Positions 18,224 to 38,030 of a stretch of 64,000 nt of DNA are shown piece after piece. The position numbers were made by a program, and so were the translations under genes. The stretch covers positions 1-64,000 of the forward strand of contig JACPTK010000116.1 in the NCBI GenBank assembly GCA_016192825.1, given 5' to 3'. This DNA is from Betaproteobacteria bacterium. Lineage in GTDB: Bacteria > Pseudomonadota > Gammaproteobacteria > Burkholderiales > SG8-41. The notes beneath the pieces were generated by a model. That model had not been told where the DNA came from, searched no databases, and saw only the letters and a program-made list of their open reading frames with translations. The first letter of the stretch is position 1. Each line of letters starts with the position of its first letter.

Positions 18224-19270
18224 ATGCGCGTCGTGGTCTTTTTCGCCGCCACGCTACTCCTCGCCGCCTGCGGCAAATCCCCCGAATCCTCGCCGCCGTC
18301 CGTGGCGCCGGCCCTGCGGTCTGCGGCTGTCGAGCTGCGCGAGGTGGATCTCACGTACTCCGCCGAAGGCGTGGTCGAGGCGGTGCGCCAGTCCACCGTC
18401 GCCGCGCAGATCGCCGGTCGCATCGTGGACATCCGATTCGACGTCGGCGACCACGTGAAGAAGGGCGAGGTCATCGTGCGCATCGACGAGCGCGCCGCGA
18501 CCCAGGCGGTGGCAGCGAGCGTGGCGCAGGTCCGCGAAGCCCAGGCGGCGCTCGCCAACGCCCGCGCGCAGTACGAGCGCTCGAAGCAGCTCCTTGCCCA
18601 GAAGTTCATCAGCCAGGCCGCCTTCGACCAGACCGAGGCGGCCTACAAGGCCGCCCGGGAACGCGTCGCGGGCGTGCTCGCCGGCGCCGGGCAGGCCGCC
18701 ACCGAGCGGGGTTTCGCCACCATCGTTGCGCCGTACAGCGGGGTCGTTTCGGCGCGGCACGTGGAGCTGGGCGAGATGGCCACGCCGGGCCGGCCGCTCA
18801 TGACCGGGTTCGATCCTTCGACGCTGCGCGCCGTGGCGAACGTGCCGCAGGCGCAGGTCGCGGCCATCCAGTCCGCCGCCAGGGCGCGGGTCGAAGCGCC
18901 CTCGATCGGCAAATGGGTGGACGTGCGCCAGATCACGGTCGTGCCCTCGGCCGACCCGCGCACGCACACCACGCGCGTGCGGCTCGACCTGCCCGAAGAC
19001 GTGCGCGGCCTCTATCCCGGGGTCTACGCGCGCGCGCACTTCGTGACCGGTCGGGCGACGAAGCTGATGGCGCCGCGCGCGGCGGTGATCCATCGCAGTG
19101 AAGTCACCGCGGTGTACGTGGTGGACGGAAGGAATCCGCCGCAGCTCAGGCAGGTGCGGCTCGGCGCCGCCGGCGACGAGACCCACGTCGAGATCCTGGC
19201 GGGACTCAAGCCCGGCGAGCAGGTCGCGCTGGAACCGGTCAAGGCCGGCATCGCCACGGCCGGCGGCTAG
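18224..19270 (+). CDS. RND efflux periplasmic adaptor (membrane fusion protein), lipoprotein
   Basis: A 348-residue adaptor that links an inner-membrane RND pump to an outer-membrane channel. It starts with a lipoprotein signal (MRVVVFFAATLLLAACGK; lipobox LAAC). The biotinyl-lipoyl-like halves flank a helical hairpin (ASVAQVREAQAALANARAQY...KFISQAAFDQTEAAY, about 85-155). The beta-barrel and membrane-proximal domains follow (TVVPSADPRTHTTRVRLDL; GLKPGEQVAL). It lies ten bases upstream of the pump gene, so the two form one operon. No TolC-type channel gene is in this window. Confidence 0.93.
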   Translation: MRVVVFFAATLLLAACGKSPESSPPSVAPALRSAAVELREVDLTYSAEGVVEAVRQSTVAAQIAGRIVDIRFDVGDHVKKGEVIVRIDERAATQAVAASVAQVREAQAALANARAQYERSKQLLAQKFISQAAFDQTEAAYKAARERVAGVLAGAGQAATERGFATIVAPYSGVVSARHVELGEMATPGRPLMTGFDPSTLRAVANVPQAQVAAIQSAARARVEAPSIGKWVDVRQITVVPSADPRTHTTRVRLDLPEDVRGLYPGVYARAHFVTGRATKLMAPRAAVIHRSEVTAVYVVDGRNPPQLRQVRLGAAGDETHVEILAGLKPGEQVALEPVKAGIATAGG

Positions 19271-19280
19271 AACCTATCTC

Positions 19281-22200
19281 ATGGGCATCTCCGGGCGCAT
19301 CGCGCGGTCCTTTCAGGATTCGCGGCTCACGCCGCTGCTGGCGCTGGTTGCGTTCCTGCTCGGGCTGTTCGCGGTCCTGGTGACCCCGCGCGAGGAGGAG
19401 CCACAGATCAACGTCACGATGGCCAACGTCTTGGTGCCGTTTCCCGGCGCCTCGGCCCGGGACGTCGAGACGCTGATCGCCACGCCCGCCGAGCAGGTGC
19501 TGTCGCAGATGACCGGCGTGGAGCACGTGTTTTCGGTGTCGCGGCCCGGGATGGCGGTGCTGACCGTGCAGTTCGAGGTCGGCGTGCCGCGCATCGACGC
19601 CCTGGTCCGCCTCTACGACACCGTCAACTCGAACCGCGATTGGGTCTCCCCCAACCTCGGGATACTCGATCCCATCATCAAGCCCAAGGGGATCGACGAC
19701 GTGCCGGTGGTCGCGCTCACGTTCTGGAGCGAGGACCCCCAGCGCGGCGCCTTCGAGCTGGAGCGCATCGCGCACGCGGCGGAAATCGAGTTCAAGCGGG
19801 TGCCGGGCACGCGCGAAGTGCAGACGCTGGGTGGACCGGGGCGCGCCTTGCGCGTCCTCGTCGACCCCGACCGGCTGAACGCCTACGGCGTGACCGCGCT
19901 CGACGTGAGAAGCGCGCTGCAGCTCGCGAACGTCGCGTTGCCGAGCGGCCGGATCGTTCGCGAGAACCGCGAGATCGTGGTGGAAACCGGCAACTACCTG
20001 GCATCCGCGGACGAGCTTCGCCAGCTGATCGTCGGCACCCACGAGCAGCGGCCGGTGTTCCTGTCCGACGTCGCCGACGTCGTCGACGGGCCCGAGCAGC
20101 CGGCGCGCTACGTCTGGACCGGCGCCGGTCCCGCGGCACGGGCGAAGGACATCGGGCCGCCGGGCGAGCAGCCGGCGGTCACGCTGCAGATCACCAAGAA
20201 GCCCGGTGAGAACGCGGTGGAGATCGCAGAACGCGTCATGCGGCGCGTCGAGGAGCTGCGCGGCGCGATCGTGCCGGCCGACGTGCGTATCACGGTGACG
20301 CGCAATTACGGGGTCACCGCGAACGACAAGGCGCAGCAACTCATCCACAAGCTGATCTTTGCGACGCTGTCCGTGGTCGTGCTGGTGTTCGCGGCGCTCG
20401 GCCTGCGCGAGGCGGTCATCGTCGGTGCCGCGGTGCTGCTCACGCTCGCCGCCACGCTATTCGCCTCGTGGGCGTGGGGCTTCACGCTTAACCGGGTCTC
20501 GCTCTTCGCGCTCATCTTCTCCATCGGCATCCTGGTGGACGATGCGATCGTCGTGGTCGAGAACATCCACCGGCGGATGTCCCTCGAGCGCAAACCGCTC
20601 GCCGACGTGATTCCGACCGCCGTGGACGAGGTCGGCGGGCCGACGATACTCGCGACCCTCACCGTGATCGCGGCGCTGTTGCCGATGGCATTCGTCTCCG
20701 GATTGATGGGCCCCTACATGAGCCCGATTCCGATCAATGCGAGCATGGGCATGCTGATCTCGCTCGCCATCGCCTTCACGGTCACGCCCTGGCTCGCGCT
20801 GCAGATGCTCGGCCGCGGCGGCCATGACGGCGAAGCGCCGGGCGGCGCGCTCGAGCGCGTTTTCCGGCGGCTGCTGGCGCCGTTCATCACCGGCGCCGAC
20901 GCGCCGCGCAACCGCGGCCGCCTCGCCTACGCGGTGCTGGGGCTGATCGCAATCTCGCTGTCGCTCGCGGGCGTCAGGCTCGTCGTTCTCAAGATGCTGC
21001 CGTTCGACAACAAGTCGGAGTTCCAGGTCGTCGTGGACATGCCGCCGGGCACGCCGGTCGAGATCACCGCCGCCGCGCTGCGCGCCATGGGCGGCCATCT
21101 CGCGACCGTTCCGGAAGTCACGGATTACCAGGCCTACGCGGGACTCGCCTCTCCCATCAACTTTAACGGGCTGGTGCGGCAGTACTACCTCCGCAACGCC
21201 TCCGAGACGGGAGACATCCAGGTCAACCTGGTCGACAAGGCCGACCGCGAGCGCCAGAGCCACGACATCGCGCAGGCGGTGCGGCCGAAGCTGGAGGAAA
21301 TCGGGCGCGCCTGGAACGCCCGGGTGAAGGTGGTGGAGGTGCCGCCGGGCCCGCCGGTGCTCTCGCCGATCGTCGCGGAGATCTACGGACCGGACGAGGC
21401 CGGGCGCGCGCGCGTCGCCAGTCGGGTGCGCGAGGCCTTCGCGGCGACCGCCGATATCGTCGGCATCGACGACTCGGTCGAGGACCCCGCCCCGCGCATC
21501 GTGCTCAAGGTAAGCCAGAACAAGGCGGCGCTCGCGGGCGTGAGCCGCCGCGATGTCGTCGAGACCATGCGCATGGGGCTCTCGGGTGCGGAGGTCACGC
21601 CGCTGCACGACGGCCAGTCGAAGTACGAGGTGCCGGTGCGGGTGGCGCTTCCCCCCGAGCGCCAGGGCGAGCTGTCCGAATTTCTCAAGCTCGCGGTCCG
21701 CGCCCCCGCCGGGGACCTGGTGCCGCTGTCGGAAGTCGTGACGCCGCTGCGCAACGAGCGCGACCGGCCCATCTATCACAAGGACCTGCTGCCGGTCGTG
21801 TACGTCGTGGGCGACCAGGCCGGCCGCGTGGACAGCCCGCTTTACGGCATGTTCGCCGCGCGCGCCAAAATCGCCGGCCAGCCGCTCGAGGAAGGCGGCC
21901 GGCTCGGCGAGTACTTCATTCGCCAGCCCTCCGACCCCTACCGCGAATACGCGGTGAAGTGGGACGGCGAATGGCAGGTCACCTACGAGACCTTCCGCGA
22001 CATGGGCATCGCCTACGCCGTGGGCCTGATCCTGATCTACCTGCTGGTGGTCGCGCAGTTCGGCTCCTACCTCGCGCCGCTCGTCATCATGGCGCCGATC
22101 CCGTTGACGGTGATCGGCGTGCTGCCCGGGCACGCCCTGCTGGGCGCCAATTTCACCGCGACGTCGATGATCGGCATGATCGCGCTGGCCGGGATCATCG

Positions 22201-22487
22201 TGCGGAACTCGATCCTGCTCGTGGACTTCGTCAATCTCAAGGTCGCGGAAGGCGTGCCCTTCCGCGACGCGGTGATGCAGTCCGCCGCGGCGCGCGCGAA
22301 GCCGATCGCGCTCACGGCGGCCGCGGCCACGATCGGGGCCACCTTCATCCTCGACGACCCGATCTTCAACGGCCTCGCGATCTCGCTGATCTTCGGCATC
22401 CTGGTCTCGACGCTGCTCACGCTGGTGGTGATCCCGGTGCTCTACTACGCGGCCTACCGGCGCACGCTGGAGCCGGCGCGGGGATAA
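19281..22487 (+). CDS. RND family efflux pump, AcrB-type inner-membrane transporter
   Basis: A 1068-residue proton-driven exporter with the standard twelve-helix, two-fold-repeated plan: TM1 (LTPLLALVAFLLGLFAVLVT), a first porter loop, TM2-6 near 345-500, a second porter loop from about 575 to 850, and TM8-12. The proton-relay aspartates are visible in TM4 (SIGILVDDAIVVVENIHRRM). The N-terminal EEEPQINVTMANV segment and the porter sequence resemble the broad 'efflux RND permease' group rather than metal (HME) pumps, so the substrate is undetermined. It is co-transcribed with its adaptor. Its TAA stop overlaps the first codons of the shortened cydA frame, with no intergenic space, which is abnormal. 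Confidence 0.94.
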   Translation: MGISGRIARSFQDSRLTPLLALVAFLLGLFAVLVTPREEEPQINVTMANVLVPFPGASARDVETLIATPAEQVLSQMTGVEHVFSVSRPGMAVLTVQFEVGVPRIDALVRLYDTVNSNRDWVSPNLGILDPIIKPKGIDDVPVVALTFWSEDPQRGAFELERIAHAAEIEFKRVPGTREVQTLGGPGRALRVLVDPDRLNAYGVTALDVRSALQLANVALPSGRIVRENREIVVETGNYLASADELRQLIVGTHEQRPVFLSDVADVVDGPEQPARYVWTGAGPAARAKDIGPPGEQPAVTLQITKKPGENAVEIAERVMRRVEELRGAIVPADVRITVTRNYGVTANDKAQQLIHKLIFATLSVVVLVFAALGLREAVIVGAAVLLTLAATLFASWAWGFTLNRVSLFALIFSIGILVDDAIVVVENIHRRMSLERKPLADVIPTAVDEVGGPTILATLTVIAALLPMAFVSGLMGPYMSPIPINASMGMLISLAIAFTVTPWLALQMLGRGGHDGEAPGGALERVFRRLLAPFITGADAPRNRGRLAYAVLGLIAISLSLAGVRLVVLKMLPFDNKSEFQVVVDMPPGTPVEITAAALRAMGGHLATVPEVTDYQAYAGLASPINFNGLVRQYYLRNASETGDIQVNLVDKADRERQSHDIAQAVRPKLEEIGRAWNARVKVVEVPPGPPVLSPIVAEIYGPDEAGRARVASRVREAFAATADIVGIDDSVEDPAPRIVLKVSQNKAALAGVSRRDVVETMRMGLSGAEVTPLHDGQSKYEVPVRVALPPERQGELSEFLKLAVRAPAGDLVPLSEVVTPLRNERDRPIYHKDLLPVVYVVGDQAGRVDSPLYGMFAARAKIAGQPLEEGGRLGEYFIRQPSDPYREYAVKWDGEWQVTYETFRDMGIAYAVGLILIYLLVVAQFGSYLAPLVIMAPIPLTVIGVLPGHALLGANFTATSMIGMIALAGIIVRNSILLVDFVNLKVAEGVPFRDAVMQSAAARAKPIALTAAAATIGATFILDDPIFNGLAISLIFGILVSTLLTLVVIPVLYYAAYRRTLEPARG

Positions 22488-22978
22488 ACAAGAACCTGAT
22501 CAAGGTCGGCAACGTCGCCGGCCCGCTGCTCGCCTACGAGGTGCTCACGGCCTTCTTCCTCGAGGCGACCTTCCTGGGCGTGATGCTGTTCGGCATGAAC
22601 CGCGTGCCCGGCTGGATGCACGTCACCTCCGCCGTGCTGGTCGCCGCCGGCACCTCGCTCTCCGCGTTCTGGATCCTCAAGCACGACGCCGACGCCGAGC
22701 TGAAGGGCATCGACGCCTTGGCGCCGGACGCGCCGCCGGTCGCACCGGTGTTCTTCGCGTTCCGGGTCATGGTGGGCATCGTCGCCGGCGTGCTGCGCAC
22801 CGCCGAGGCGGTCGGCACGATATCCGGCGCGAAACTCGGCGCGAGCCTCACGGGCTACCTGCTCACCTACACGCTGATGCTGGTCGCCTACATGGTCGTG
22901 CTCACGCACCTGGCCGGCAAGGGCAGCGCGCGCGAGGACCCGCGCGCCGCCGTCATGGCCGGGGAGATGGCCAGATGA
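22484..22978 (+). pseudogene. Internally deleted cytochrome bd oxidase subunit I (cydA remnant)
   Basis: The frame starts directly at the RND stop without a start codon and encodes about 164 residues in place of the usual 440-520. Segment 1 (VGNVAGPLLAYEVLTAFFLE, then ATFLGVMLFG...LSAFWIL) matches CydA around the E99/E107 helix. It then jumps to KHDADAELKG...PPVAPVFFAFRVMVGI, which belongs near R391/M393, and jumps again to VAGVLRTAEAVGTISG and the last membrane helix. The N-terminal helix with His19, the His186 region, the quinol loop and about 80 later residues are missing. The two internal joins keep frame. The retained parts show no stop codons. It cannot be a normal oxidase subunit. Alignment is from memory of the family. 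Confidence 0.8.
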
Positions 22979-23793
22979 CCCTCGATCTGCCCGTCGTCTT
23001 CGCCGTCCTCATGGGCGTGGTGGTCCTCGCCTACGTCGTGCTGGACGGCTACGACCTCGGCGTCGGCATGCTCCTGCCCGCCGCCGATCCGCGCGAGCAG
23101 AACGTGATGGTCTCCTCCATCGGCCCGTTCTGGGACGCCAACGAGACTTGGCTGGTGCTGGGCGTCGCCCTGCTGCTCGCGCAGGGGCTGATGCTGGGCA
23201 GCTACATCACCGGCTTCGCGCCCGGCTTCGGTTACGCGCTGCTCTCGCTGGTCGTCGCCGGCGGCCTGTGCGGCGGCTACGTTCTGCTCCGCGCGACCTG
23301 GCTCATCCTGCGCACCGAGGGCGCGCTGCAGCGCAAGGCGGTAGCCTGGGCGCGCTGGGGCCTGCTGTGGGTTGCGCTCGGCGTCGCGCTCGTCAGCATC
23401 GCCACGCCGCTCGCGAGCGAATCCGTGCGCGACAAGTGGTTCGATTTTCCGCGCACGCTCGGGCTGATGCTGCTGCCGCTCGCGAGCCTCGCGGCGTGGC
23501 TCTGGGTCTGGCGCATTTCCGGCCGCATCCGCAAGGGAGAGGCCGTTCCCGATTGGGCGCCGTTTGCCGGCACGATCGCGATTTACGCGCTCGCGTTCCT
23601 CGGTCTCCCCTACAGCCTCTTCCCCTACCTGGTGATGGACCGGATCACGATCTGGGAAGCCGCGGCGCATCCGTCCTCCCTCAAGCTCGTGCTCATCGGC
23701 GCCCTCATCGTGCTGCCGTTCATCATCGGCTGGACCGCGTATGTCTACCGCGTCTTCCGCGGCAAGGCGACGGGAACGCTCTATGATCACTGA
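22975..23793 (+). CDS. Shortened cytochrome bd oxidase subunit II (CydB-like)
   Basis: A 272-residue membrane protein that starts as a normal CydB (MTLDLPVVFAVLMGVVVLAY, then VVLDGYDLGVGMLLP, then SSIGPFWDANETWLVLGV). It then runs straight into LLLAQGLMLGSYITGF, omitting about 50-60 residues that normally hold the next membrane helices and the RGVAFEFR segment. The rest is ordinary (ATWLILRTEG; ITIWEAAAHPSSLK; FRGKATGTLYDH). Normal family members are about 330-380 residues. The deletion is in frame. It overlaps the cydA remnant by ATGA, so translational coupling is kept. No cydX-like small gene follows. Function is doubtful. Confidence 0.8.
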   Translation: MTLDLPVVFAVLMGVVVLAYVVLDGYDLGVGMLLPAADPREQNVMVSSIGPFWDANETWLVLGVALLLAQGLMLGSYITGFAPGFGYALLSLVVAGGLCGGYVLLRATWLILRTEGALQRKAVAWARWGLLWVALGVALVSIATPLASESVRDKWFDFPRTLGLMLLPLASLAAWLWVWRISGRIRKGEAVPDWAPFAGTIAIYALAFLGLPYSLFPYLVMDRITIWEAAAHPSSLKLVLIGALIVLPFIIGWTAYVYRVFRGKATGTLYDH

Positions 23794-24117
23794 AGGCCGG
23801 CGCCTCGCGGGGCAGGGCGAGCGTGGCATTAGAAAATCGAAACGCTCCATTCAAGATACTTATGCGCTTGCGCCCGCGCTGGCGAATTCGCGGTTCGCGC
23901 CGCGCCTGCAGGCGGACTGCTTGACTTCCAGAAGGGCGCGACTAACACTATGCCTGCTTGACTGTTGCTCTTGCAGCTCGAAACGCGCCGCCGAAGCGAG
24001 GGGCGCACGAAGAATAAGCCGCGCGGCACTTTTGCGCGAACTATAAGCAAGTGTCGAGGGTGCCCGCGGCCATCGTGCGGCGCACCCGATCAGAGGTCAC
24101 AAACAAGGGAGGGGCAC
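23794..24117. other. 324-base intergenic region after cydB
   Basis: No gene is seen. It holds TTGACT at about 23921 with a weak TAACAC 16 bases on, and TATAAG near 24042. These are possible promoters for the YeiH-like gene, neither convincing. A GGGAGGGG ribosome site ends the region. I find no cydX-like frame and no terminator. Confidence 0.4.
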
Positions 24118-25716
24118 ATGGTCTACACCCGGCGTACCGTCTGGCCGTTGGTCATCGGCATCATCATGGTGGCTTATGCCTACCTCGTGCAGGGCGGCAA
24201 CATGGCGGCGCTCATCAAGTTCCTGAATACCGGCCGATATGTAGGAGAAATGGTGACCCTCGGCTATGCGTTCGGGGGCGTCGCCATCCTGGTCGGCCTG
24301 TGGCAGCTGCTCGCCGCGCCCAGGGAAGGCCATGCGGATTACTACCTCTCCACCGTCGCCGGTGTGATGTTCATCATGCTGGTCGCGTTCATCGTCAAGT
24401 GGGGCCTCGATCCGTTGATGGGAATGTGGGGGCGCGCGGCGCAGCCGTCGCTGGGGTTCAATTTCGCCAGCGTGCTCAACCTCAACTACGTGGTCATGGG
24501 CATCGTCGCCGGGATCATCGTGGTCAACGTGTTCCGGGTGCCGCATTGGGCCGAGAACGGCGTGCGCCTGTCGCGACTGGGCCTGAAGACCGGCGTCATC
24601 CTGCTCGGCGCGCTCTATAGCTTCGCGGAGCTCGCGCAGCTAGGCAAGCTCTCCGTCCTCATGATCGGCGTGTTCGTGCTCGGATCGGTCTGGCTGGTCC
24701 TGCTTATCGGGGCGCGCCGCCATCTCCCGAATTCGATGACTGGGGTGTTGTCCTCCGGTGTGGGCGTGTGCGGCGTATCTGCCGCCGTCGCCGCCGCCCC
24801 GGTGGTGCAGGCCAAGTCGCTGGAGATCGCGTACACGATCGGCACCATCCTGCTGTTCGGCGTGGTGTGCATGTTCCTGTTTCCAATCGTCGGCAAGGCG
24901 TTTGGCATGGGCTATATTCAGTTCGGCGCGTGGGCCGGCACCGGCATCCTGAATTCCGCGCAGGTGGCCGGTGCGGCGCTCGCGTTCCAGCCGGGCGGCA
25001 TCGAAACGCTGAAGGTCGCCGAGATCTTCAACATCACGCGTGTGTTGTTCCTTCCGATCATCGTCGTGTGGCTCGCAATCTGGTACGTGCGCAGGGAGCA
25101 GGCCGCCCAGCGCAGTGTGCAGCAGGTCAACGCGATGGAGGTGGTCATCAGCAAGTTCCCCATCTTCGTCCTGGGATTCATCCTGATGTTCCTGCTCTCT
25201 TCGACCGGCATCTTCGCGCCTGCCCGCCACTACCAGGGCGCGTACTTCGACAACAGCGAAAAAGCCCTGGTCAGGACGGACCGCGCCGGCAAGCAGATCG
25301 ACAACCGCCTCAAGGCGGACGAAGTCGCGACGCTCCAGAAGGAGGTGGACAAAGTGACGCGGGCCGACCAGAAGGCGGCGCTCACCCGGCTGATCGAAAA
25401 CAAGAAGATCATGTCTGAGGCGGACGACGCCACCGTCCGCGGCGTAATCAACGCCAAGGCGCTGTCCAAGGAGGGTACGGCGGTCCTCACCAAGGCGCAC
25501 CGGGTCGTGCGCCATACCGCCCCGAAGATATCGAAGTTCCGGACGCTGATTGCGTGGTTCTTCACCTTCGGCCTCGTCGGGCTCGGGATGCAGATTACGA
25601 TGTCGTCCATCCGGCAGGCTGGGGGCGCGCCGCTCGTGCTCGGCTCGATCGTGGGCGTGATCAAGGCTGTCGGCTCGCTCATCGTCGTGCTGCTGCTGGT
25701 CGCCGAAACCATTTAG
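24118..25716 (+). CDS. YeiH/UPF0324-like membrane protein with a long soluble insert
   Basis: A 532-residue integral membrane protein with about ten hydrophobic segments. The core (SRLGLKTGVILLGALYSFAE, GVGVCGVSAAVAAAPVVQAK, IGTILLFGVVCMFLFPIVGK, FGAWAGTGILNSAQVAGAAL) matches the YeiH family of putative anion (sulfate/sulfonate) exporters. Two features differ from ordinary YeiH, which has about 340 residues. There are extra N-terminal helices (1-125). There is also a hydrophilic, lysine-rich insert of about 110 residues (370-480; DNRLKADEVATLQKEVDKVT region) before the final helices. The insert looks helical and probably lies on one face of the membrane. ATG 24118 has an AGGGAGGGG site. A 39-residue membrane peptide follows 16 bases downstream. 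Confidence 0.82.
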   Translation: MVYTRRTVWPLVIGIIMVAYAYLVQGGNMAALIKFLNTGRYVGEMVTLGYAFGGVAILVGLWQLLAAPREGHADYYLSTVAGVMFIMLVAFIVKWGLDPLMGMWGRAAQPSLGFNFASVLNLNYVVMGIVAGIIVVNVFRVPHWAENGVRLSRLGLKTGVILLGALYSFAELAQLGKLSVLMIGVFVLGSVWLVLLIGARRHLPNSMTGVLSSGVGVCGVSAAVAAAPVVQAKSLEIAYTIGTILLFGVVCMFLFPIVGKAFGMGYIQFGAWAGTGILNSAQVAGAALAFQPGGIETLKVAEIFNITRVLFLPIIVVWLAIWYVRREQAAQRSVQQVNAMEVVISKFPIFVLGFILMFLLSSTGIFAPARHYQGAYFDNSEKALVRTDRAGKQIDNRLKADEVATLQKEVDKVTRADQKAALTRLIENKKIMSEADDATVRGVINAKALSKEGTAVLTKAHRVVRHTAPKISKFRTLIAWFFTFGLVGLGMQITMSSIRQAGGAPLVLGSIVGVIKAVGSLIVVLLLVAETI

Positions 25717-25732
25717 GGAAGGAGGAGCAGTC

Positions 25733-25852
25733 ATGGAAGACAAATTTGACCGCGGTTCCGCGTTGACGATATTCCCGAGCGATCGCCACGAGGATCTCGT
25801 CGCGCTGGTGCTGGCGTTCGTCATCGCAGCGCTCGTCTATTTCCTGGTCTGA
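25733..25852 (+). CDS. 39-residue single-span membrane peptide
   Basis: ATG 25733 lies seven bases after a near-perfect ribosome site (GGAAGGAGGAG), and the frame runs to TGA 25850-25852. The product has a charged N-terminal half (MEDKFDRGSALTIFPSDRHE) and one hydrophobic helix (LVALVLAFVIAALVYFLV). I know no named family for it. The 16-base spacing after the YeiH-like gene and the strong terminator 23 bases downstream show that the two form one transcript. It is likely a small partner subunit of the transporter, as CydX or KdpF are for theirs; this is an inference. Confidence 0.75.
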   Translation: MEDKFDRGSALTIFPSDRHEDLVALVLAFVIAALVYFLV

Positions 25853-25875
25853 TCCGGCCAGGATTGCTTCCGCGT

Positions 25876-25913
25876 CCCGGTGAGCGCGTGCTGCGCGTCA
25901 CCGGGATTTTTTT
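25876..25913 (+). terminator. Rho-independent terminator between the small peptide and uspA-like genes
   Basis: The stem CCCGGTGA / TCACCGGG (25876-25883 with 25898-25905) has further CGCG pairing inside and is followed by A and seven T's (25907-25913). It ends only three bases before the ATG of the UspA-like gene, so it lies in that gene's leader. Confidence 0.88.
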
Positions 25914-25916
25914 GCC

Positions 25917-26381
25917 ATGTTGAAGGCCGATCGCGTCCTGCTCGCCAGCCACGGGACGCCCGGCGCGCGCGCGGCGGAATGCGCCGCGCTCGCTCTTGCG
26001 GCGCCAGCCGCCACGATTTTCCACCTCGTCGTGGTACCGGACCTGTGGAAGGGAATGATGGGCGACGACTGGCTCAACAATGCCTCCACGCGCGCGGCTT
26101 ACGGGCGCCACGTCGAGTCCCAGCTCGCCCGGGAAATCGAGGAGCACCGCGCCGCCCTCGAGCGTGAGGTCCATGCGAGCGGCCGGCGCTACGAACTGAA
26201 GGTCGTGCTGGGTGAGCCCAGCGCCGCGTTGCTCGAGTACGCCGCGACGCTCCAACCGGACTGCGTCGTAATTGGCGCCCCGCGCCCGAAGGGTGCACCC
26301 GGATTGCGTTCGCGCATGCGCGTCGAGAAACTCGCCGGGGCGCTGGGCGCTCCTTTGCTCGTGGTCCCCCATCCGGGATGA
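25917..26381 (+). CDS. UspA-type universal stress protein
   Basis: A 154-residue single-domain USP: the N-terminal strand DRVLLASHGTPGARAAECAA, a helix, and the C-terminal part QPDCVVIGAPRPKGAPGLRS followed by VEKLAGALGAPLLVVPHPG. The usual ATP-binding G-2X-G-9X-G(S/T) loop is altered (GAPRPKGAPGLRSRMRVEK), so ATP binding is uncertain. ATG 25917 directly follows a terminator T-run and has no ribosome site, so translation may depend on read-through transcripts or be leaderless. It overlaps the next gene by ATGA. Confidence 0.86.
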   Translation: MLKADRVLLASHGTPGARAAECAALALAAPAATIFHLVVVPDLWKGMMGDDWLNNASTRAAYGRHVESQLAREIEEHRAALEREVHASGRRYELKVVLGEPSAALLEYAATLQPDCVVIGAPRPKGAPGLRSRMRVEKLAGALGAPLLVVPHPG

Positions 26382-26971
26382 GCGAGACCACGGCTCACCA
26401 CGCCGACGCGGCCTGGGTAACCATCGAGGTTCCCCTCGAGCGCGCGGCGCTCGCCGCGTTCTGCCGCGACGTGGAGCGGCTCTACCGCATCAACCCCTAT
26501 CTCGAATTCAGGCGCTGGCGCGAGACCGCTCCCGGCGCCTTCACCGTATCCATGCGCAATCTGAGCAACCAGCGCGATTTCGAACTGCAGCTCACGCTGG
26601 AACGGGCCTCGGAGCGAGACTTCTCGGTGCGCTACGACCAAGGGTTGAAACGCAGCACGCGTTTCGAGATCGACGCGACCGATGGAGGCAGCCGCCTGCG
26701 GATCACCGACGATTACAGCGGAGCGTTAGAAACGGATACCGCAGAGGTCGACAGGAGCCTGCATGCCTGGGGGGTCGCCCTCAGGGAATACCTGCTGCGC
26801 GACCGGCGCTGGGGCTGGTGTGCGCCGTGGCGCTGGTACATGCGGCGCGTGTGGGTGCCGATGAAGCCCTCCGCACGGCGTATCACCTTCATCATCCTCC
26901 TGGTGACGCTAGCCGAGGTCGTCCTGTTCGCCCTGGTGATGGCGATCTACTGGGCCGAGCACCGCGCTTGA
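26378..26971 (+). CDS. SRPBCC-like protein with C-terminal membrane anchor
   Basis: A 197-residue protein. Residues about 12-150 look like a START/SRPBCC ligand-binding fold (VTIEVPLERAALAAFCRDVE...ERASERDFSVRYDQGL...GSRLRITDDYSG). A single hydrophobic helix near the C-terminus (ITFIILLVTLAEVVLFALVM) anchors it to the membrane, with the domain facing the cytoplasm. The family assignment rests on pattern only, and the ligand is unknown. The ATGA overlap with the UspA-like gene indicates coupled translation. It converges with the CDGSH gene, whose stop is only 20 bases away. Confidence 0.65.
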   Translation: MSETTAHHADAAWVTIEVPLERAALAAFCRDVERLYRINPYLEFRRWRETAPGAFTVSMRNLSNQRDFELQLTLERASERDFSVRYDQGLKRSTRFEIDATDGGSRLRITDDYSGALETDTAEVDRSLHAWGVALREYLLRDRRWGWCAPWRWYMRRVWVPMKPSARRITFIILLVTLAEVVLFALVMAIYWAEHRA

Positions 26972-26991
26972 TGGCGGCTCCCGGCCGCGCG

Positions 26992-27216
26992 TCACGCGCT
27001 GCGGATGCCGGGGTAGTCCTCGGCACACTCGTGACGGTTGCCGTCCACGTCATACCAGAAAAGCTTCGCAGCGTCCTCGGTCCGCGCGGTGGTCTTGTGC
27101 GTGCCGTCGCAGAACGGCTGGTTCTTCGACAATCCGCAGCCGCAGATGAACTTGGTCTCGGCTCCGACCTCGACCTTGTAGGGGCCGGTGGCCGTGCGCT
27201 TCACGAGTCTCGCCAT
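26992..27216 (-). CDS. CDGSH-type iron-sulfur protein
   Basis: A 74-residue protein with the mitoNEET-like 2Fe-2S motif: CGCGLSKNQPFCDGTH supplies three cysteines and one histidine. Proteins of this size in bacteria carry a redox-active cluster in the cytoplasm; the partner is unknown. The N-terminus MARLVKRTATGPYKVEVG is typical. The gene stands alone, with heptad array E just upstream. Confidence 0.92.
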   Translation of the reverse strand: MARLVKRTATGPYKVEVGAETKFICGCGLSKNQPFCDGTHKTTARTEDAAKLFWYDVDGNRHECAEDYPGIRSA

Positions 27217-27232
27217 AATGACCTCCGATCGG

Positions 27233-27378
27233 GTTGTCAGTCGTCAGCCGTCAGTTGGCAGTTTTCAGTTTGAACTTCAGACACTGCGACTTTGCTGGCA
27301 GCATGACGGCTCTCATGCCGCGGCGGTCGCCCGCTTCGAATCAGTCCATTCACTATTCACCTTTCACCATTCACGCCT
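27233..27378. repeat. Heptad repeat element E (two unlike arrays)
   Basis: Left array 27233-27279 with units CAGTCGT, CAGCCGT, CAGTTGG, CAGTTTT. Right array 27343-27378 with units TTCACTA, TTCACCT, TTCACCA, TTCACGC. The two arrays have the same period but are not complementary, unlike the other sites. Confidence 0.55.
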
Positions 27379-27379
27379 T

Positions 27380-28903
27380 TCAGGCTGCGGCGCTCGCAGC
27401 CGCCGTCGCCTGCTTCGACGCCGTGCGCGAGCCCACCACGGGATAGGGGTAGAGCATGTTGAGCGCGATGCTCTGGTTCGCGGTCTGGACGATCCTCACG
27501 TGCTCGCGCTTCAGCTCCCGCGCGTGGCGGCAGCCGCAGGAGTGCGCGATCATGTCGATCTCCTTGTCCATGTTGCGGGCGTAGTTGGCCACGCGCAGGT
27601 ACTTCTCCTCGACCGCCAGCCCGCGTTGCAGGCGCTTGTTGTGGGTGGTGACGCCGGTCGGGCAGGTGTTGGTGTGGCATCTCAGCGCCTGGATGCAGCC
27701 CAGCGACAGCATGAAGCCGCGCGCGGTAACCACGAAGTCCGCGCCCACGCACAATGCCCACGCCGCGCGCGCGGAGGTGACGAGCTTGCCGGCGGCGATC
27801 ACCCGGGTGCGGTTCTTGAGGTCCGATTGCAGCAGCGAGTCCACCACGCGCGGCAACGCTTCCGCGATCGGCAGCGCCATGTGGTCCATCAGCGTCTGCG
27901 GGGCGGCGCCGCTGCCGCCCTCGCCGCCGTCGATATGCAGAAAGTCCGGCGCGTACTCCTTGCCGCGCCGAAGCACCGTCTCGCACAGGTCGTTGATGAA
28001 TTCCCAGCCCCCAATCGCGGTCTTGACGCCCACCGGCCGCCCGGTGAGATCGCGCAGGTAGGCCACCTTGTCGAGCAGCTGGTCCATGTTGGCGATGTCG
28101 TAGTGGCGGTTGGGGCTGATCGAGTCCTTGCCTTGGGGAATGCCGCGGATGCGCGCGATCTCCTCGGTGACCTTGCCGCCGGGCAGCACGCCGCCCTTGC
28201 CCGGCTTGGCGCCCTGCGAGAGCTTGATCTCGAACGCCTTCACGTGCTGCGCCAGCTCCTTCGCCTTTTCCGGAGAAAAACTGCCGTCGTGATTGCGCAT
28301 GCCGTACTTGGCGGTGCCCATCTGCATGATGACGTCGCAGCCGCCTTCCAGGTGATGGGGCGCCAGCCCGCCTTCGCCGGTACCCATCCAGCAGCCGGCT
28401 ACCTTCGCGCCGCGCGAGAGCGCGCGCACCGCGGGCGCCGAAATCGCGCCGAAGCTCATGCCGCTGATGTTGACGATGGACTTCGCCTCGAACGGCTGCT
28501 TGCAGTAGCCCCCGCCGATCAGAAGGGAGGGCGTCTGGAGACGGTCTTCCTCGAGCACCGGGAACGGGTGATTGACGAAAATGATCGAGCCCGGCTCGCG
28601 CAGATCGTTGGTCGAGCCGAAACCGATGATGCCCCCCTCGTTCTTCGCCTCCTTGTAGACCCAGGCGCGCGTGGCGCGGTTGAACGGCATCTCGGAGCGG
28701 TCGCCCGCGAAGAAGTACTGCCGGAAATACTCGCCGAGGTTCTCGAAGAAAAAGCGGAAGCGCCCGATCACCGGGTAGTTGCGCAGCACCGTGTGCTTCT
28801 TCTGGGTGACGTCGTGGACGATCAGCACGAACAGCGCGCCGATCAGCACGAATCCGAGTATCGTGCCGATGCCGTAGGACAATACGCTCAGTAATCCTTC
28901 CAT
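27380..28903 (-). CDS. FMN-binding glutamate synthase family protein (GltB central-domain type)
   Basis: A 507-residue protein similar to the FMN / alpha-ketoglutarate domain of glutamate synthase. It is anchored by an N-terminal membrane segment (LSYGIGTILGFVLIGALFVL). Visible family segments: ISGMSFGAISAPAVRALSRG, GTGEGGLAPHH, KLSQGAKPGKGG, DFLHIDGGEGGSGAAP and CHTNTCPTGVTTHNK. It lacks the glutaminase domain and has no small-subunit partner nearby, so it is probably not a classical GOGAT. The electron partner is unknown. It is divergent from nadC, with a 90-base shared regulatory region. Confidence 0.88.
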   Translation of the reverse strand: MEGLLSVLSYGIGTILGFVLIGALFVLIVHDVTQKKHTVLRNYPVIGRFRFFFENLGEYFRQYFFAGDRSEMPFNRATRAWVYKEAKNEGGIIGFGSTNDLREPGSIIFVNHPFPVLEEDRLQTPSLLIGGGYCKQPFEAKSIVNISGMSFGAISAPAVRALSRGAKVAGCWMGTGEGGLAPHHLEGGCDVIMQMGTAKYGMRNHDGSFSPEKAKELAQHVKAFEIKLSQGAKPGKGGVLPGGKVTEEIARIRGIPQGKDSISPNRHYDIANMDQLLDKVAYLRDLTGRPVGVKTAIGGWEFINDLCETVLRRGKEYAPDFLHIDGGEGGSGAAPQTLMDHMALPIAEALPRVVDSLLQSDLKNRTRVIAAGKLVTSARAAWALCVGADFVVTARGFMLSLGCIQALRCHTNTCPTGVTTHNKRLQRGLAVEEKYLRVANYARNMDKEIDMIAHSCGCRHARELKREHVRIVQTANQSIALNMLYPYPVVGSRTASKQATAAASAAA

Positions 28904-28950
28904 CCACTCTCCTCCGATGCGCTAGAATCGAACTACCGTATCAACCACAG

Positions 28951-28967
28951 ACAAAAATAGTTTTTGT
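28951..28967. promoter_or_regulatory. 17-base inverted repeat between gltB-like and nadC genes
   Basis: ACAAAAA (28951-28957), TAG, TTTTTGT (28961-28967) is a perfect palindrome 27 bases before the nadC GTG, in the divergent promoter gap. Position and symmetry suggest an operator for a dimeric repressor. A hairpin is also possible. Confidence 0.45.
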
Positions 28968-28993
28968 GTAGCTGTTAACTATAGAGGAAATCG

Positions 28994-29830
28994 GTGGACT
29001 TGGCATCCGAGATCGAGCGCAACGTCGCCGCCGCCCTGGCCGAGGACGTGGGCGACGGCGACGCCACTGCGCCGCTCACTCCTGCTGGCCAGCCGGCCCG
29101 CGCCGCCGTGGTGTGCAAGCAGGACGCGGTGGTCTGCGGACAGCCGTGGTTCGAGGCCTGCTTCCGCAAGCTCGACGCGCGCGCCGCCGTGACCTGGCTG
29201 GTCAGGGAAGGAGCGAAAGTGAGCGCCGGAGCGCGTGTCTGCGAGGTACGGGGGGAGGCGCGCGCATTATTGGCTGCGGAACGCAGTGCAATTAATTTCC
29301 TGCAGACCCTCTCCGCCGTCGCGACAGCCACGCGCCGGCTGGTGGACGCCGCCGTGGGGACGCGCGCGAAGATCGTCGACACCCGCAAGACCCTCCCCGG
29401 CCTGCGCGTCGCGCAGAAATACGCCGTGCGCATGGGCGGTGGCGCGAACCATCGCATGGGGCTCTACGACGCGATGCTGATCAAGGAAAACCACATCGCC
29501 GCGGCGGGCGGCGTCCGGCAGGCGCTGGCGCAGGCGAAGAAAGCGGCCAAGCCGGGCGTTTGGGTACAGATCGAGGTGGAAAACCTCGATCAGCTCAAGG
29601 AAGCGCTCGACGCGGGCGCGACGATGATCCTGCTCGACAACATGAGCGTCGAAACGACGCGCGAAGCGGTGAAGATCGCCGGCGACCGCGCGGAGCTGGA
29701 GGCATCGGGTGGCATCACGCTGGATACGGTGCGCGCGGTGGCGGAGACGGGGGTGCACCGGATATCAAGTGGCGGCCTGACCAAGGACATCAAGGCTGTC
29801 GATTTTTCGATGCGCTTTGAACCATCGTGA
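28994..29830 (+). CDS. nadC: Nicotinate-nucleotide pyrophosphorylase (carboxylating)
   Basis: A 278-residue quinolinate phosphoribosyltransferase that converts quinolinate and PRPP to nicotinate mononucleotide in de novo NAD synthesis. Motifs: EDVGDGDATA at the N-terminus, LLAAERSAINFLQTLSAVAT, TRKTLPGLRVAQKYAV, GGGANHRMGLYDAMLIKENH, IEVEN, LDNMS and EASGGIT. GTG 28994 follows a GAGGA site. nadA and nadB are not in the window. An inverted repeat upstream may bind a NAD-responsive repressor. Confidence 0.96.
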   Translation: MDLASEIERNVAAALAEDVGDGDATAPLTPAGQPARAAVVCKQDAVVCGQPWFEACFRKLDARAAVTWLVREGAKVSAGARVCEVRGEARALLAAERSAINFLQTLSAVATATRRLVDAAVGTRAKIVDTRKTLPGLRVAQKYAVRMGGGANHRMGLYDAMLIKENHIAAAGGVRQALAQAKKAAKPGVWVQIEVENLDQLKEALDAGATMILLDNMSVETTREAVKIAGDRAELEASGGITLDTVRAVAETGVHRISSGGLTKDIKAVDFSMRFEPS

Positions 29831-29940
29831 GATCGTGAAGTCGGGAGATCGCGAGATCGAAAAACCGGGAGCTCGGGAGCTCGTGAGATGCGAAGGCGGC
29901 GCTTTTCCCTCTCCCGCTCCCCCGCCCTCACGAGTAGCGC
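29826..29940. repeat. Tandem repeat element F (about 8-base period)
   Basis: Between nadC and the next gene. Units resemble GAGATCGT, GAAGTCGG, GAGATCGC, GAGATCGA, then GGAGCTCG twice and GTGAGATG (29826-29893). A short opposing CCTCACGAG lies near 29930. It is the same kind of element as the heptads but closer to period 8. Confidence 0.5.
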
Positions 29941-29958
29941 TATTTCGGGAGATTTGTG

Positions 29959-30690
29959 ATGACCTCAAGACGTGATATGAGCAAGGGCCGCCGGGGATTC
30001 CTGCGGGCCGCCGCAGCGACGCTGGCCTTGAGCGGGCTTCCCTCCGCCGCGCATGCCGCGCGCGGAAAGTTGAGGATCGGCATCGTCGGTTCGGGCCGGA
30101 TCGGCGGGACGCTCGGCCGCATCTGGGCGAACGCCGGGCACACGGTCATGTTCTCTTCGCTCGATCTCGAGCACGACAAGGCGCTGGCCGCCAGCGTCGG
30201 CGCGAACGCCCGGGCCGGGACGCCGCGCGAAGCCGCTGCGTTCGGCGAAGTATTGCTGGTCGCGGTGCCGTACCACGCGTTGCCAAGCGTGGGGAAAGAG
30301 CTGGCCGAGCTGCTCAAGGGCAAGGTGGTGATAGACACGTGCAACCCCTTTCCCGGGCGCGACGGCGAGGTGGGAATCTGGGCCCAGAAGAAAGGCGCCG
30401 GTCTTGCCTCGGCGGAGCTGCTCCCCGGGGCGCGCATCGTCCGCGCCTTCAACGCAGTCGGCTACACGAGCCTGCCACTGGCTACGCAGCGCCAGCCGCG
30501 CGCCGGCATGCCGATGGCGGGCGACGATGCAAAAGCCAACGAGATCGCATCGCTACTCGTGCGCGACGTCGGCTACGAGCCGGTGGTGATCGGACCGCTC
30601 GTCAAAGGCAAATATCTGGTTCCGGGAACGCCGCTCGCCGGCGAACGCTCGCCGGAGGAGATCCGTAGGATCGCGGCTACGCTCAAGTGA
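29959..30690 (+). CDS. Tat-exported NADP-binding (F420-dependent reductase-like) protein
   Basis: A 243-residue Rossmann-fold protein of the COG2085 / NADPH-F420 reductase-like group. The N-terminus has a twin-arginine leader (GRRGFLRAAAATLALSGLPS...AHA). The dinucleotide fold follows with IGIVGSGRIGGTLGRIWANA, then VLLVAVPYHALPSVGKELAE, VIDTCNPFPGRDGE and RIVRAFNAVGYTSL. Export of a folded cofactor-binding protein by Tat is reasonable, but the reaction is unknown. ATG 29959 has a GGGAG site; an adjacent GTG 29956 is the alternative. Confidence 0.78.
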   Translation: MTSRRDMSKGRRGFLRAAAATLALSGLPSAAHAARGKLRIGIVGSGRIGGTLGRIWANAGHTVMFSSLDLEHDKALAASVGANARAGTPREAAAFGEVLLVAVPYHALPSVGKELAELLKGKVVIDTCNPFPGRDGEVGIWAQKKGAGLASAELLPGARIVRAFNAVGYTSLPLATQRQPRAGMPMAGDDAKANEIASLLVRDVGYEPVVIGPLVKGKYLVPGTPLAGERSPEEIRRIAATLK

Positions 30691-30697
30691 GACGCGG

Positions 30698-30741
30698 TAG
30701 CGGTCAGTTGTCAGCCGCCAGCCGTCAGTTGCAGGCCGTCA
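30698..30741. repeat. Heptad repeat element G
   Basis: Units GTCAGTT, GTCAGCC, GCCAGCC, GTCAGTT, GCAGGCC, GTC between the Rossmann gene and the second Bug gene. It is a single array of the CAGT type also seen in element E. Confidence 0.55.
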
Positions 30742-30773
30742 AATGCAAGAGGATGATCCAAAGGGAGCGCTTT

Positions 30774-32046
<1,273 letters not shown>

Positions 32047-32050
32047 GCTC

Positions 32051-32160
32051 TGTTTTTCTGTCTTTTGTATGATTCTTTATCCTGTAAGTCTTGTGATCCT
32101 GTTAATCCCGTCTATTTTTGCTTGGATCTTCTTGGCGGTCTTGGCGTCTTGGCGGCTAAT
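32051..32160 (-). repeat. 9-base-period dispersed repeat, copy 1
   Basis: Read on the minus strand: GCCGCCAAG, ACGCCAAG, ACCGCCAAG, then a spacer, then GGGATTAAC, AGGATCACA, AGACTTACA, AGGATAAAG. The same two-part layout recurs at 34281, 36452 and 62141. This copy abuts, and probably truncates, the META-domain remnant. Confidence 0.7.
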
Positions 32161-32385
32161 TTATTTGTCTAATTCTGTCTGCCCCGAAGGCAATCGTGTA
32201 TTTCGATTTTTCATCCGGAATCAGGACCGTGTCATCGCCGCCCTGGAACCTCACGAGTTGCCACGACGTCCCGCCAAGCCCATCCGCCGCACTTTGCGGC
32301 GGCGTCTGCGCGCAGGCGGACACCAGCTGCAGAGCCGCGAATGACAGGTAGTCCGCGGCAGCGCGTCTCGTAAGCCCCCCATCAC
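32156..32385 (-). pseudogene. Truncated META/HslJ-domain lipoprotein gene
   Basis: The frame LTRRAAADYLSFAALQLVSA, then CAQTPPQ, reads as a lipoprotein signal with lipobox VSAC. It is followed by GLGGTSWQLVRFQGGDDTVL, then IPDEKSKYTIAFGAD, the first strands of a META (HslJ-like) domain. It then breaks off into the 9-base repeat (RIRQIN, stop), losing about half of a normal META domain. No good start codon remains: an ATG nearby is in another frame. It sits about 20 bases behind prpD. The call rests on pattern similarity. Confidence 0.6.
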
Positions 32386-32406
32386 GATCAATGCCCGGCG
32401 CGCATC

Positions 32407-33852
32407 TCAATCGACGAAAAGATCCACGAATTCGTTGACGGCGGTCGCTTCGAGCCGCCGCTGGTCTTTGCACAGGCCGAGTATCGCCGCTTGCCGTTCA
32501 GGTGTGAATCGCCGAGCGAGATTGGTCCTGAACTTGGCTTCCAGCAGCGGCAGGCCTTCCTGGCGCCGGCGGCGGTGACCGAGGGGATATTCCACCAGGA
32601 CGTCATCTGTCTTGCTGCCATCGTTGAAGAATACCTGAACCGCACAGGGCACCGATCGCTTCTTCGGGTCGAGATAATCGCGGTTCCACTGCTTGTTTTC
32701 GACGCAGACCATTTTGTCACGCAGCCTGTCGATGCGCGGATCGGCCGCGACATCGTCTTCGTAATCGGCGGCGGTGAGGCTCCCTTTTATCAGAGGCACC
32801 GCGGTGGTGTAGCGCACGCAATGGTCGCGGTCCGCGGGATTGCTGAGCGGGCCCTTCTTGTCGCTGATGCGGATGAGGTTTTCATGGGTCGTCAGGACGA
32901 TTTTCTTGATCTCGTCCAGCCGGTCCCCGACCTGGGCATGGAGCTTCAGCGCGCATTCGACCGCGGGCTGGCAGTGAAACGCAGTCGGATAGGAAATCTT
33001 GAACAGCACGTTCTCGACGACGTACGAGCCGTAGGGACGCTGGAACGTGAACGGCTTGCCCTTGAAGGCCACGTCGTAGAGACCCCAGCGTTTGGCCGTC
33101 AGCGCCGTGGGGTAGCCCATTTCCCCCTTGAGCGTCATCAATGCGAGCCGCACCGAGCGGCTGGCGGCATCGGCCGCCGCCCACGACTTCCGCGATCCTG
33201 CGTTGGGCGCATGGCGGAACACGCGCAACGTCTGCCCATCGACCCAGGCGTTCGAAACAGCGTTGATGATCTCGTCCCGCGTACCACCGAGCATCGCGGT
33301 GATCACAGCGGTGCTGCCGATCTTGGCGAGTCCCACGCTGCCGTCCAGGCCCACGGCGTGGAAACTGTTTTTCAGCGCAATCACGCCCTGGATCTCGTAC
33401 GCCTTGATCAGCGCAGTCAGTACATCGCGCATCACCAGCGGTTTCCTGCCCGCGGACACGTTCACGCGCGACAGATAGTCGGCGGTCGCGAGTATGCCGC
33501 CCAGGTTGTCCGACGGGTGTCCGGCTTCGGCCGCGAGCCAGGTGTCGCTGAAATCGACCCAGCGCACCATGCAGGCGATGTTGAACGCCGCCAGGACCGG
33601 GTCGAGCTGAAAGGATGTGCCGGGCACTTTGGCGCCATCCGGCACGACCGTGCCCGCCACGATGGGCCCCAGGAGCTTGGTGCACGCAGGATACGACAAC
33701 GCCTCCATGGCGCAGCCCAGGCTGTCCATCAGGCACTGGCGCGCGGTGTCGTAGGCCTCCGCGCTGTTGATCTTGTAATTGACGACGTAATCCGCGATAT
33801 CGACCATCACCTGGTCGGGCCTGGGACGGGCACCGGACACATGCGTTGACAC
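32407..33852 (-). CDS. prpD: MmgE/PrpD family protein, probable 2-methylcitrate dehydratase
   Basis: A 481-residue enzyme that in the PrpD family dehydrates 2-methylcitrate to 2-methyl-cis-aconitate in the propionate-degrading methylcitrate cycle. The N-terminal YKINSAEAYDTARQCLMDSL, GCAMEAL and the WVDFSDTWLAAEAGHPSDNL segment are close to true PrpD rather than distant MmgE proteins. The C-terminal VEYPLGHRRRRQEGLPLLEA, then KF, also fits. It has full length. GTG 33852 has a GGAG site. prpB, prpC and acnD are not adjacent, so pathway membership is inferred from the sequence type only. Confidence 0.85.
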   Translation of the reverse strand: MSTHVSGARPRPDQVMVDIADYVVNYKINSAEAYDTARQCLMDSLGCAMEALSYPACTKLLGPIVAGTVVPDGAKVPGTSFQLDPVLAAFNIACMVRWVDFSDTWLAAEAGHPSDNLGGILATADYLSRVNVSAGRKPLVMRDVLTALIKAYEIQGVIALKNSFHAVGLDGSVGLAKIGSTAVITAMLGGTRDEIINAVSNAWVDGQTLRVFRHAPNAGSRKSWAAADAASRSVRLALMTLKGEMGYPTALTAKRWGLYDVAFKGKPFTFQRPYGSYVVENVLFKISYPTAFHCQPAVECALKLHAQVGDRLDEIKKIVLTTHENLIRISDKKGPLSNPADRDHCVRYTTAVPLIKGSLTAADYEDDVAADPRIDRLRDKMVCVENKQWNRDYLDPKKRSVPCAVQVFFNDGSKTDDVLVEYPLGHRRRRQEGLPLLEAKFRTNLARRFTPERQAAILGLCKDQRRLEATAVNEFVDLFVD

Positions 33853-34003
33853 TGGCTACTCCATCTTCAGGTAAACGGGCCAGGCTCGAGCCATCCAAAA
33901 AGGCACCTTGGAGGTCCTTCGAGGCCGCGTTTCGATCGCAAATTGCGCGTCCCAGGGACAGCGCATCAGAACAAAGAGGACGCACCCCTTTTTCCGGTGT
34001 GAC

Positions 34004-34279
34004 TCACTTGCTCTCGCCATTTTCGCTGTCGCCGCCTTCACGCCGGGCTTGCTGGAGTTCCGAAGCAAAAAACCACCGCACGTAACCGACCATCGCGCAA
34101 GCACCCACGCACCAGGCAATGAAGGAAAACACCGTCATGACCATGGCAACCAGCGCGGACGCCTGGAAGTGAACTGCCACCCCGGCGCCCGCCGCACAGA
34201 ATGCCAGGCCCATCAGCATGGGTTTCCAGCGGGTGCTGTCCGGGGTTATCAGCGAGCGCAGCCGATCGGTCGGTGACAT
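34004..34279 (-). CDS. Small two-span membrane protein
   Basis: A 91-residue protein that I do not recognise. Two hydrophobic helices are visible (MLMGLAFCAAGAGVAVHF and ALVAMVMTVFSFIAWCVGAC), the tail is charged (ASELQQARREGGDSENGESK), and the N-terminus SPTDRLRSLITPDSTRWK is basic. ATG 34279 and its AAGGA site fall at the end of a 9-base-period repeat copy. It lies 75 bases downstream of the SDR gene on the same strand and may be read through from it. Confidence 0.65.
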   Translation of the reverse strand: MSPTDRLRSLITPDSTRWKPMLMGLAFCAAGAGVAVHFQASALVAMVMTVFSFIAWCVGACAMVGYVRWFFASELQQARREGGDSENGESK

Positions 34280-34280
34280 G

Positions 34281-34342
34281 ATCTTGTCTATCCTTTGCGC
34301 CTTTGCATCTCTGCGGCTAATCTTTGCCTTCCTGGCGTCTTC
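34281..34342 (-). repeat. 9-base-period dispersed repeat, copy 2
   Basis: Minus-strand reading: GACGCCAGG, AAGGCAAAG, ATTAGCCGC, AGAGATGCA, AAGGCGCAA, AGGATAGAC, AAGATC. It is a degenerate relative of the copies at 32051 and 36452, between the SDR 3' end and the small membrane gene, whose ribosome site it supplies. Confidence 0.55.
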
Positions 34343-34354
34343 CGCAGCGCACGG

Positions 34355-35104
34355 TCAGCTGCCCAGGCGCCCGCAGTCCATCACGACCGTCTGCCCGGTC
34401 ATGCTGTCGCTGCGGCAGAAGAGCACCACCTGGTCCGCCACGTCGTCCTTGCTCACCGGGCGGCCCAGGAGCGTGTAGCCGGTCACCTTGCTCGCGTAGT
34501 CGGGCGACAGGTTGGAGGTCATGCGCGTGCCTTCCATGAAACCGGGGGCGACGCAGTTCACCGCCACCGCCGGCGCGAGGGCCACCGCCATGCACTTGGT
34601 GAGGTGGATCACGCCGGCCTTGGACACGGCGTAGGCAATACTGCTGCCGCGCGGGAAGACGCCGGCGCCGGAGGAGATGTTGACGATACGCCCCTGCCCC
34701 TGGGCCTTCATCACGGGCGCGACCGCCTTGATGCAGTTGAACGTGCCCGTAAGATTGGTCGCGAGGATATGGTTCCACAGCTCGTGCGTCATGCCGTCAA
34801 GATCGGCGTACGGGACCGACTGGTTGATTGCCGCGTCGTTCACCAGGATGTCCACCCGGCCGAACTCGGCTTTCGCTTGCTCCACCATCCTCGCTACGGA
34901 GTCAGGATCGGTGACGTCGGCCTTCACGGCGATCGCGCGCGTGCCGAGCCTGGCAAGCTCCGCCGCGACGCGTTTCGCCCGGACATTCGACGCGGCGTAG
35001 TTCACCGCCACGTTGACGCCGGCGAGCGCCAGCGCCCGGCAGATGCGCTGTCCCAGCCCGCCGCTCCCGCCGGTGACGATGGCCGCGCAACCCTTCAGTT
35101 CCAT
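34355..35104 (-). CDS. SDR family oxidoreductase (FabG-like)
   Basis: A 249-residue short-chain dehydrogenase/reductase. The cofactor motif is TGGSGGLGQ, the catalytic serine is in VNISSGAG, the active-site pair is YAVSK, and DCGRLGS is at the C-terminus. The usual structural NNAG motif is replaced by NDAA (VDILVNDAAINQ), which is uncommon. The substrate is unknown. It begins one base after the thrC stop, so it is translated from the thr transcript, although no step in threonine synthesis needs it. Confidence 0.9.
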   Translation of the reverse strand: MELKGCAAIVTGGSGGLGQRICRALALAGVNVAVNYAASNVRAKRVAAELARLGTRAIAVKADVTDPDSVARMVEQAKAEFGRVDILVNDAAINQSVPYADLDGMTHELWNHILATNLTGTFNCIKAVAPVMKAQGQGRIVNISSGAGVFPRGSSIAYAVSKAGVIHLTKCMAVALAPAVAVNCVAPGFMEGTRMTSNLSPDYASKVTGYTLLGRPVSKDDVADQVVLFCRSDSMTGQTVVMDCGRLGS

Positions 35105-35105
35105 T

Positions 35106-36230: not shown

Positions 36231-36277
36231 TTTGCTCCGCAGTCAACGCTTGGTGGCGTGACCCGTGACGGGTGTTT

Positions 36278-37839: not shown

Positions 37840-37856
37840 GGGCGCTCCCGCGACAA

Positions 37857-38027: not shown

Positions 38028-38030
38028 GCC

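Follow-up and report, generated by a model that had tools for sequence, protein, structure and literature searches.

An internally deleted cydAB locus in a betaproteobacterial genome, probably a recently inactivated cytochrome bd oxidase

The window (the whole stretch of DNA analysed here, 64,000 bp) carries a cydAB locus in which blocks of both genes are missing while the reading frames stay open. We regard this locus as recently inactivated, by fresh and otherwise ordinary gene decay with loss of the bd oxidase, and assign to this reading a probability of roughly two in three. It fits best because the relatives encode full-length proteins, repeats of ~3-7 bp mark the three internal joins, the retained codons exhibit no clear relaxation, the start of cydA is lost, and the operon is patchily present in the family. 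Deletions between short direct repeats (7, ~3 and ~5 bp) would have removed two blocks of cydA and one block of cydB, and a further deletion would have taken the start of cydA and put the remnant directly behind a pump gene. Oxygen respiration could then be sustained by heme-copper oxidases whose genes lie elsewhere in the genome. That the frame survived would be due largely to the tendency of short repeats in GC-rich coding DNA to share codon phase, the product itself being unselected. The locus would thus show that one lineage has recently lost an oxidase it could do without, a matter of low general interest. The features of the locus are listed in Table 1.

Table 1. Features of the cydAB remnant and of its upstream flank, in window coordinates
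Feature	Position	Strand	Description and basis
ORF with RND efflux permease match	19098..22487	+	match from residue 78 (NF033617, 459 bits, residues 78-1117, under the model's 1250-bit cut-off); directly upstream of the cydA remnant
Join 1	22460..22497	+	RND tail to ~codon 87 of cydA; intergenic DNA and cydA 5' end gone, 482 bp less than in G009
cydA piece 1	22502..22671	+	E. coli CydA ~88-146, with E99 and E107; profile and E. coli alignment
Join 2	22672..22678	+	7-bp direct repeat GATCCTC; 444 bp absent relative to 5/5 relatives; placement and BLAST chaining
cydA piece 2	22679..22778	+	end of the quinol loop, FRVMVG (R391/M393 region); profile and alignment
Join 3	22777..22784	+	~3 bp shared; 165 bp absent relative to 5/5 relatives, GRQPW removed; BLAST chaining (all five)
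cydA piece 3	22785..22978	+	C-terminal part and stop codon; ORF and profile
cydB	22975..23793	+	272 aa (G002: 330), start and stop present, internally deleted; ORF, ATGA overlap with cydA
Join 4, inside cydB	23174..23180	+	~5 bp shared; 177 bp absent relative to 5/5 relatives; placement

The shortened genes and their joins

The cydA pieces lie in one open frame (22487-22978) of 163 codons plus a stop. In the same-genus relative G002, CydA is a protein of 447 aa with a single continuous match to PF01654, so that the remnant amounts to 36% of this length and ~64% of CydA is gone, in keeping with the initial annotation, which had estimated that about one third was left. PF01654 matched the remnant with 119.2 bits (cut-off 26.2) and the match was split over three separate stretches covering profile positions 81-140, 286-322 and 369-417, confirming the three fused segments described at that stage. 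Aligned to an E. coli bd-II chain, the pieces correspond to residues 88-148, 377-398 and 453-500, the latter two aligning weakly. The longest piece shares 83-90% identity with full-length CydA in five same-genus relatives. Neither 22487-22978, as already noted for cydA, nor 22975-23793 contains an internal stop codon or a frameshift. The loss from cydB comprises 59 codons (177 bp), or ~18% of G002 CydB, and the gene retains its own ATG start. The order of the two genes and their 4-base ATGA overlap are the same as in G002.

We mapped the joins against the five same-genus genomes that carry the operon (G002, G004, G005, G006 and G009), using placement and chaining of BLAST matches. At joins 2 to 4 the sequence is simply deleted in collinear order, with nothing inserted or inverted, and all three losses (444, 165 and 177 bp) are divisible by three. 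For join 3, placement gave no value for G009 and G004, and BLAST chaining gave 165 bp in all five relatives. For join 4, placement gave 177 bp for the five relatives and BLAST chaining gave 177 bp for four and 176 bp for G005. The sequence GATCCTC is common to both edges of join 2, as the initial annotation had pointed out, and flanks the lost block in the relatives either exactly or with small changes. The two joins inside cydA had likewise been recognised as preserving the frame, which the comparison with five relatives bears out, but two further joins, one between the RND gene and cydA and the other inside cydB, had been overlooked. Deletion between direct repeats, suggested on the same occasion, fits best with the ~3-7 bp shared at the three internal joins, although slippage between repeats is a mechanism that we infer. 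No hairpin was found at a join, the single inverted repeat in 22440-23800 being located elsewhere. Join 1 could be compared with G009; in none of the other four relatives was the pump seen adjoining cydA. A few tens of bases at this join match neither flank clearly, which is neutral as to whether all joins arose in one event.

The CydA remnant lacks the equivalents of H19 and H186 (AFHIL and MIHMM in G002; E. coli numbering), which we take to be the axial heme ligands. Also absent are TEIGRQPW, which contains the GRQPW motif, and PAKIAAIEA, a part of the quinol loop. The equivalents of E99, E107, R391 and M393 are kept in AYEV, FLEA and FRVMVG, as judged by alignment to the E. coli bd chains. 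We assume for these four residues, for GRQPW and for the quinol loop the roles of the known sites in CydA. The loss of both histidine regions and the retention of the four other residues had been called correctly from the outset; the quinol loop, then described as missing, is lost in its PAKIAAIEA part but has its end preserved in piece 2. With both heme-ligand histidines, GRQPW and part of the quinol loop missing, the remnant is not expected from its sequence to act as a bd oxidase. Because join 1 sets ~codon 87 directly behind the RND stop, the cydA start codon is gone as well, and the earliest ATG, GTG or TTG in frame is the GTG at 22541. The locus differs from genes for cytochrome bd subunits I and II (CydAB; PF01654, PF02322) by the missing heme-ligand histidines, the missing cydA start codon and an incomplete CydB.

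Distribution of CydA and terminal oxidases of the genome

Among the nine other genomes of the genus, five have a CydA match, in frames of 451-491 codons, and four have none. At the level of the family, 28 other genomes have a match, and in all 28 the best one falls in an open frame of 393-555 codons. No CydA match was found in 45 of the 74 family genomes (the window's own genome being one of the 74), and 23 of the 41 genomes with a completeness of 90% or more and a contamination of 5% or less likewise had none. Given these numbers of genomes lacking a match, the cydAB operon is dispensable and patchily distributed in the family. In the species collection, the best 80 of 161 loci include 77 complete stop-to-stop frames of 415-885 codons, and the frames of L060, L076 and L085 run off the contig end. 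Secondary matches occur in a 229-codon frame (G042, contig C338) and in a 559-codon frame (G041). Thus, no relative with the same short CydA was detected among the best matches of the 28 family genomes or among the best 80 of 161 loci. An independent family of short CydA proteins, which the initial annotation had considered, finds no support, the best matches of the relatives sitting in long frames. A literature search with the narrow phrase 'truncated CydA' returned nothing, which does not imply absence from print.

The source genome is a draft of 123 contigs with 96% completeness and 5% contamination. Profile searches of this assembly revealed no second CydB, no other full-length CydA of the same type and no trace elsewhere of the blocks missing from cydA and cydB. 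Four proteins match PF00115, the heme-copper oxidase family, one of them more weakly (149 bits) and possibly not an oxidase; with these four matches remaining, the genome should be able to do without the bd oxidase. The genome also codes for two distant CydA-like proteins on contig C35 (L174, 2139-3563, and L175, 14283-16208), which match the first half of the PF01654 profile with 59 and 63.5 bits and have no NCBIfam match. No CydB lies alongside them, neighbouring ORFs resemble cupredoxin and cytochrome c by eye, and we assume that the two proteins may belong to bd-like families lacking a CydB partner.

Selection, codon phase and alternative explanations

We estimated dN/dS of the retained segments, a check proposed in the initial annotation, with the five relatives on 142 codons of cydA and 259 codons of cydB (401 altogether) left after trimming gap-adjacent columns. 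A counting method was used, with branches fitted by least squares to the tree of eight control frames, i.e., conserved stop-to-stop frames of the window taken without family assignment. Four of the 12 control alignments made were left out on judgement, namely ctrl115, whose dN/dS above 3 surely reflects a wrong frame, and ctrl26, ctrl27 and ctrl49. The trees obtained from cydA alone and from cydB alone differ from the control tree and from each other. On the terminal branch leading to the window, dN/dS was 0.257 for cydAB (bootstrap 0.17-0.40) compared to 0.226 for the same codons on the rest of the tree. The separate values were 0.195 (0.08-0.46) compared to 0.247 for cydA, and 0.287 (0.15-0.48) compared to 0.215 for cydB. 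The eight control frames gave 0.154 (0.13-0.18) on the same terminal branch, and the intact cydAB of G002 gave 0.36 on its own branch. If full neutrality equals 1, at most about one fifth of the terminal branch would have been unconstrained, as calculated by hand from the upper bound of dN/dS. The lack of clear relaxation is compatible with deletions that are recent, with deletions that are unreal and with pieces that are still constrained, three situations that this test cannot separate. Neutrality itself is hence unsupported, which counts against the decay reading.

To judge the weight of the open frame, we tallied, in the intact regions of the five relatives, direct repeats whose two copies are separated by 100-600 bp; the count spans parts of both genes and includes pairs across the cydA/cydB boundary, where the frames differ. 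The fraction of pairs in codon phase was 0.42-0.44 for repeats of at least 3 bp, 0.51-0.55 for at least 5 bp and 0.57-0.65 for at least 7 bp, giving a probability of ~0.12-0.16 for three in-frame joins as compared to 1/27 (0.037). This bias probably stems from the high G+C content at third codon positions, which reaches 0.98 for the cydA remnant and 0.92 for cydB. With 42-65% of the repeat pairs in phase, preservation of the frame is weak evidence of function, and the bias leaves little of the case for such selection on the frame. In GC-rich genes such as these, in-frame internal deletions alone are no proof that a mini-protein is under selection.

Internal deletion is an ordinary route to bacterial pseudogenes, and the cydAB remnant resembles such pseudogenes in being truncated at the same place where relatives carry an intact operon, one that is dispensable in the family. 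It differs from them in having no frameshift or stop codon yet and in that its three internal joins all keep the frame. For decay, it is unusual to see four large deletions whose joins lie within ~0.7 kb and which bring neither frameshift nor stop; such a pattern could point to one complex rearrangement or to an artefact. In the latter case, cydAB would be intact in the living genome, and reads that were chimeric or of low coverage would have been joined over short repeats during amplification or assembly. We consider this unlikely, yet worth serious attention: the four joins fall in one small locus free of point damage, dN/dS differs little from the values of intact relatives, the assembly is a draft with the completeness and contamination given above, and chimeras formed in vitro typically show microhomology joins too. 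However, an assembler would not be misled by repeats as short as 3-7 bp, the missing blocks did not turn up elsewhere in the assembly, and no other clean deletion is shared relative to all five relatives in the portion of the 98-kb contig that could be aligned. As the shared losses are confined to cydAB on that part, the sign of a general assembly defect is absent. A single complex rearrangement by template switching, producing all joins at once with function lost all the same, seems improbable. It would agree with the clustering of the four joins and the absence of other damage, but joins 2 to 4 are collinear and free of inserted or inverted sequence, and separate events explain them equally well.

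Selection for a retained pair of mini-proteins, that is, a shortened heme-free CydA-CydB membrane complex that would still be made, appears more doubtful again. The frame is open through all pieces, dN/dS is low, and four hydrophobic segments are predicted in the CydA remnant compared to seven in intact G002 CydA by the same method, a count that says little because short and intact CydB both give seven. This option is nevertheless deprived of its main support, chance alone producing in-frame joins fairly often and both the start and the heme ligands being gone; no start codon lies near the 5' end, the quinol residues are also missing, and the searches described above yielded no relative with the short form. 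In its most explicit version, re-initiation behind the pump gene would yield a heme-free CydA of about one third of the normal length together with a short CydB, the two making up a small, retained membrane complex that has taken on a new role other than that of an oxidase; to this we give the least credence of all. Of the three options left side by side by the initial annotation (decay, assembly collapse and a mini-protein), fresh decay is thus the one that fits best. The joins are present in the assembly at the sizes given; that they also exist in the living genome, and that the locus is non-functional, is what we infer.

Other length differences and repeats on the contig

The deletion scan chained DNA matches along the 98-kb contig. 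Because 20.6-45.6 kb aligned per relative, the statement that shared deletions occur only at cydAB is limited to the alignable part, on which joins 2, 3 and 4 were the only deletions shared relative to all five relatives. A general deletion defect of the assembly, considered as a candidate, is unsupported on this count. An earlier protein-level screen missed the cydA joins, and its negatives carry no weight. Join 1 and a 123-bp difference at 19269 were each seen relative to G009 alone. A repeated multi-domain region at 41.6-46.8 kb, which we take to be a putative PAS-kinase cluster, lacks 360 bp relative to two relatives, 546 bp relative to three and other amounts relative to single ones, and 11 of its 13 length-difference rows are divisible by three. 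In-frame length differences thus do arise outside cydAB. Over the wider interval 41600-49400, a modular and internally repeated coding region, the length differs among relatives, with 21 of 23 rows divisible by three. Three unequal differences occur near 51.95 kb, and one of 489 bp relative to G002 lies at 54.9 kb.

Imperfect inverted repeats of 31 nt, 74% complementary to each other, form the ends of a 179-bp element at 36278-36456; their outer 10 bases (GATTTAGAGC/GCTCTAAATC) pair perfectly. The element sits in a stretch absent from G002, G003 and G007. Copies that are 82-91% alike occur in its own genome and in G003, G006 and G009, with at least 10 in G006 among the matches listed. No Rfam match was found in 22000-40000, which includes the element, and it looks like a small non-autonomous mobile repeat. 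Finally, at the very start of the window (1-146), the first ~140 bases recur with 99-100% identity on four further contigs of this genome, in one case at the contig's start, and are probably a short repeat where the assembly broke.
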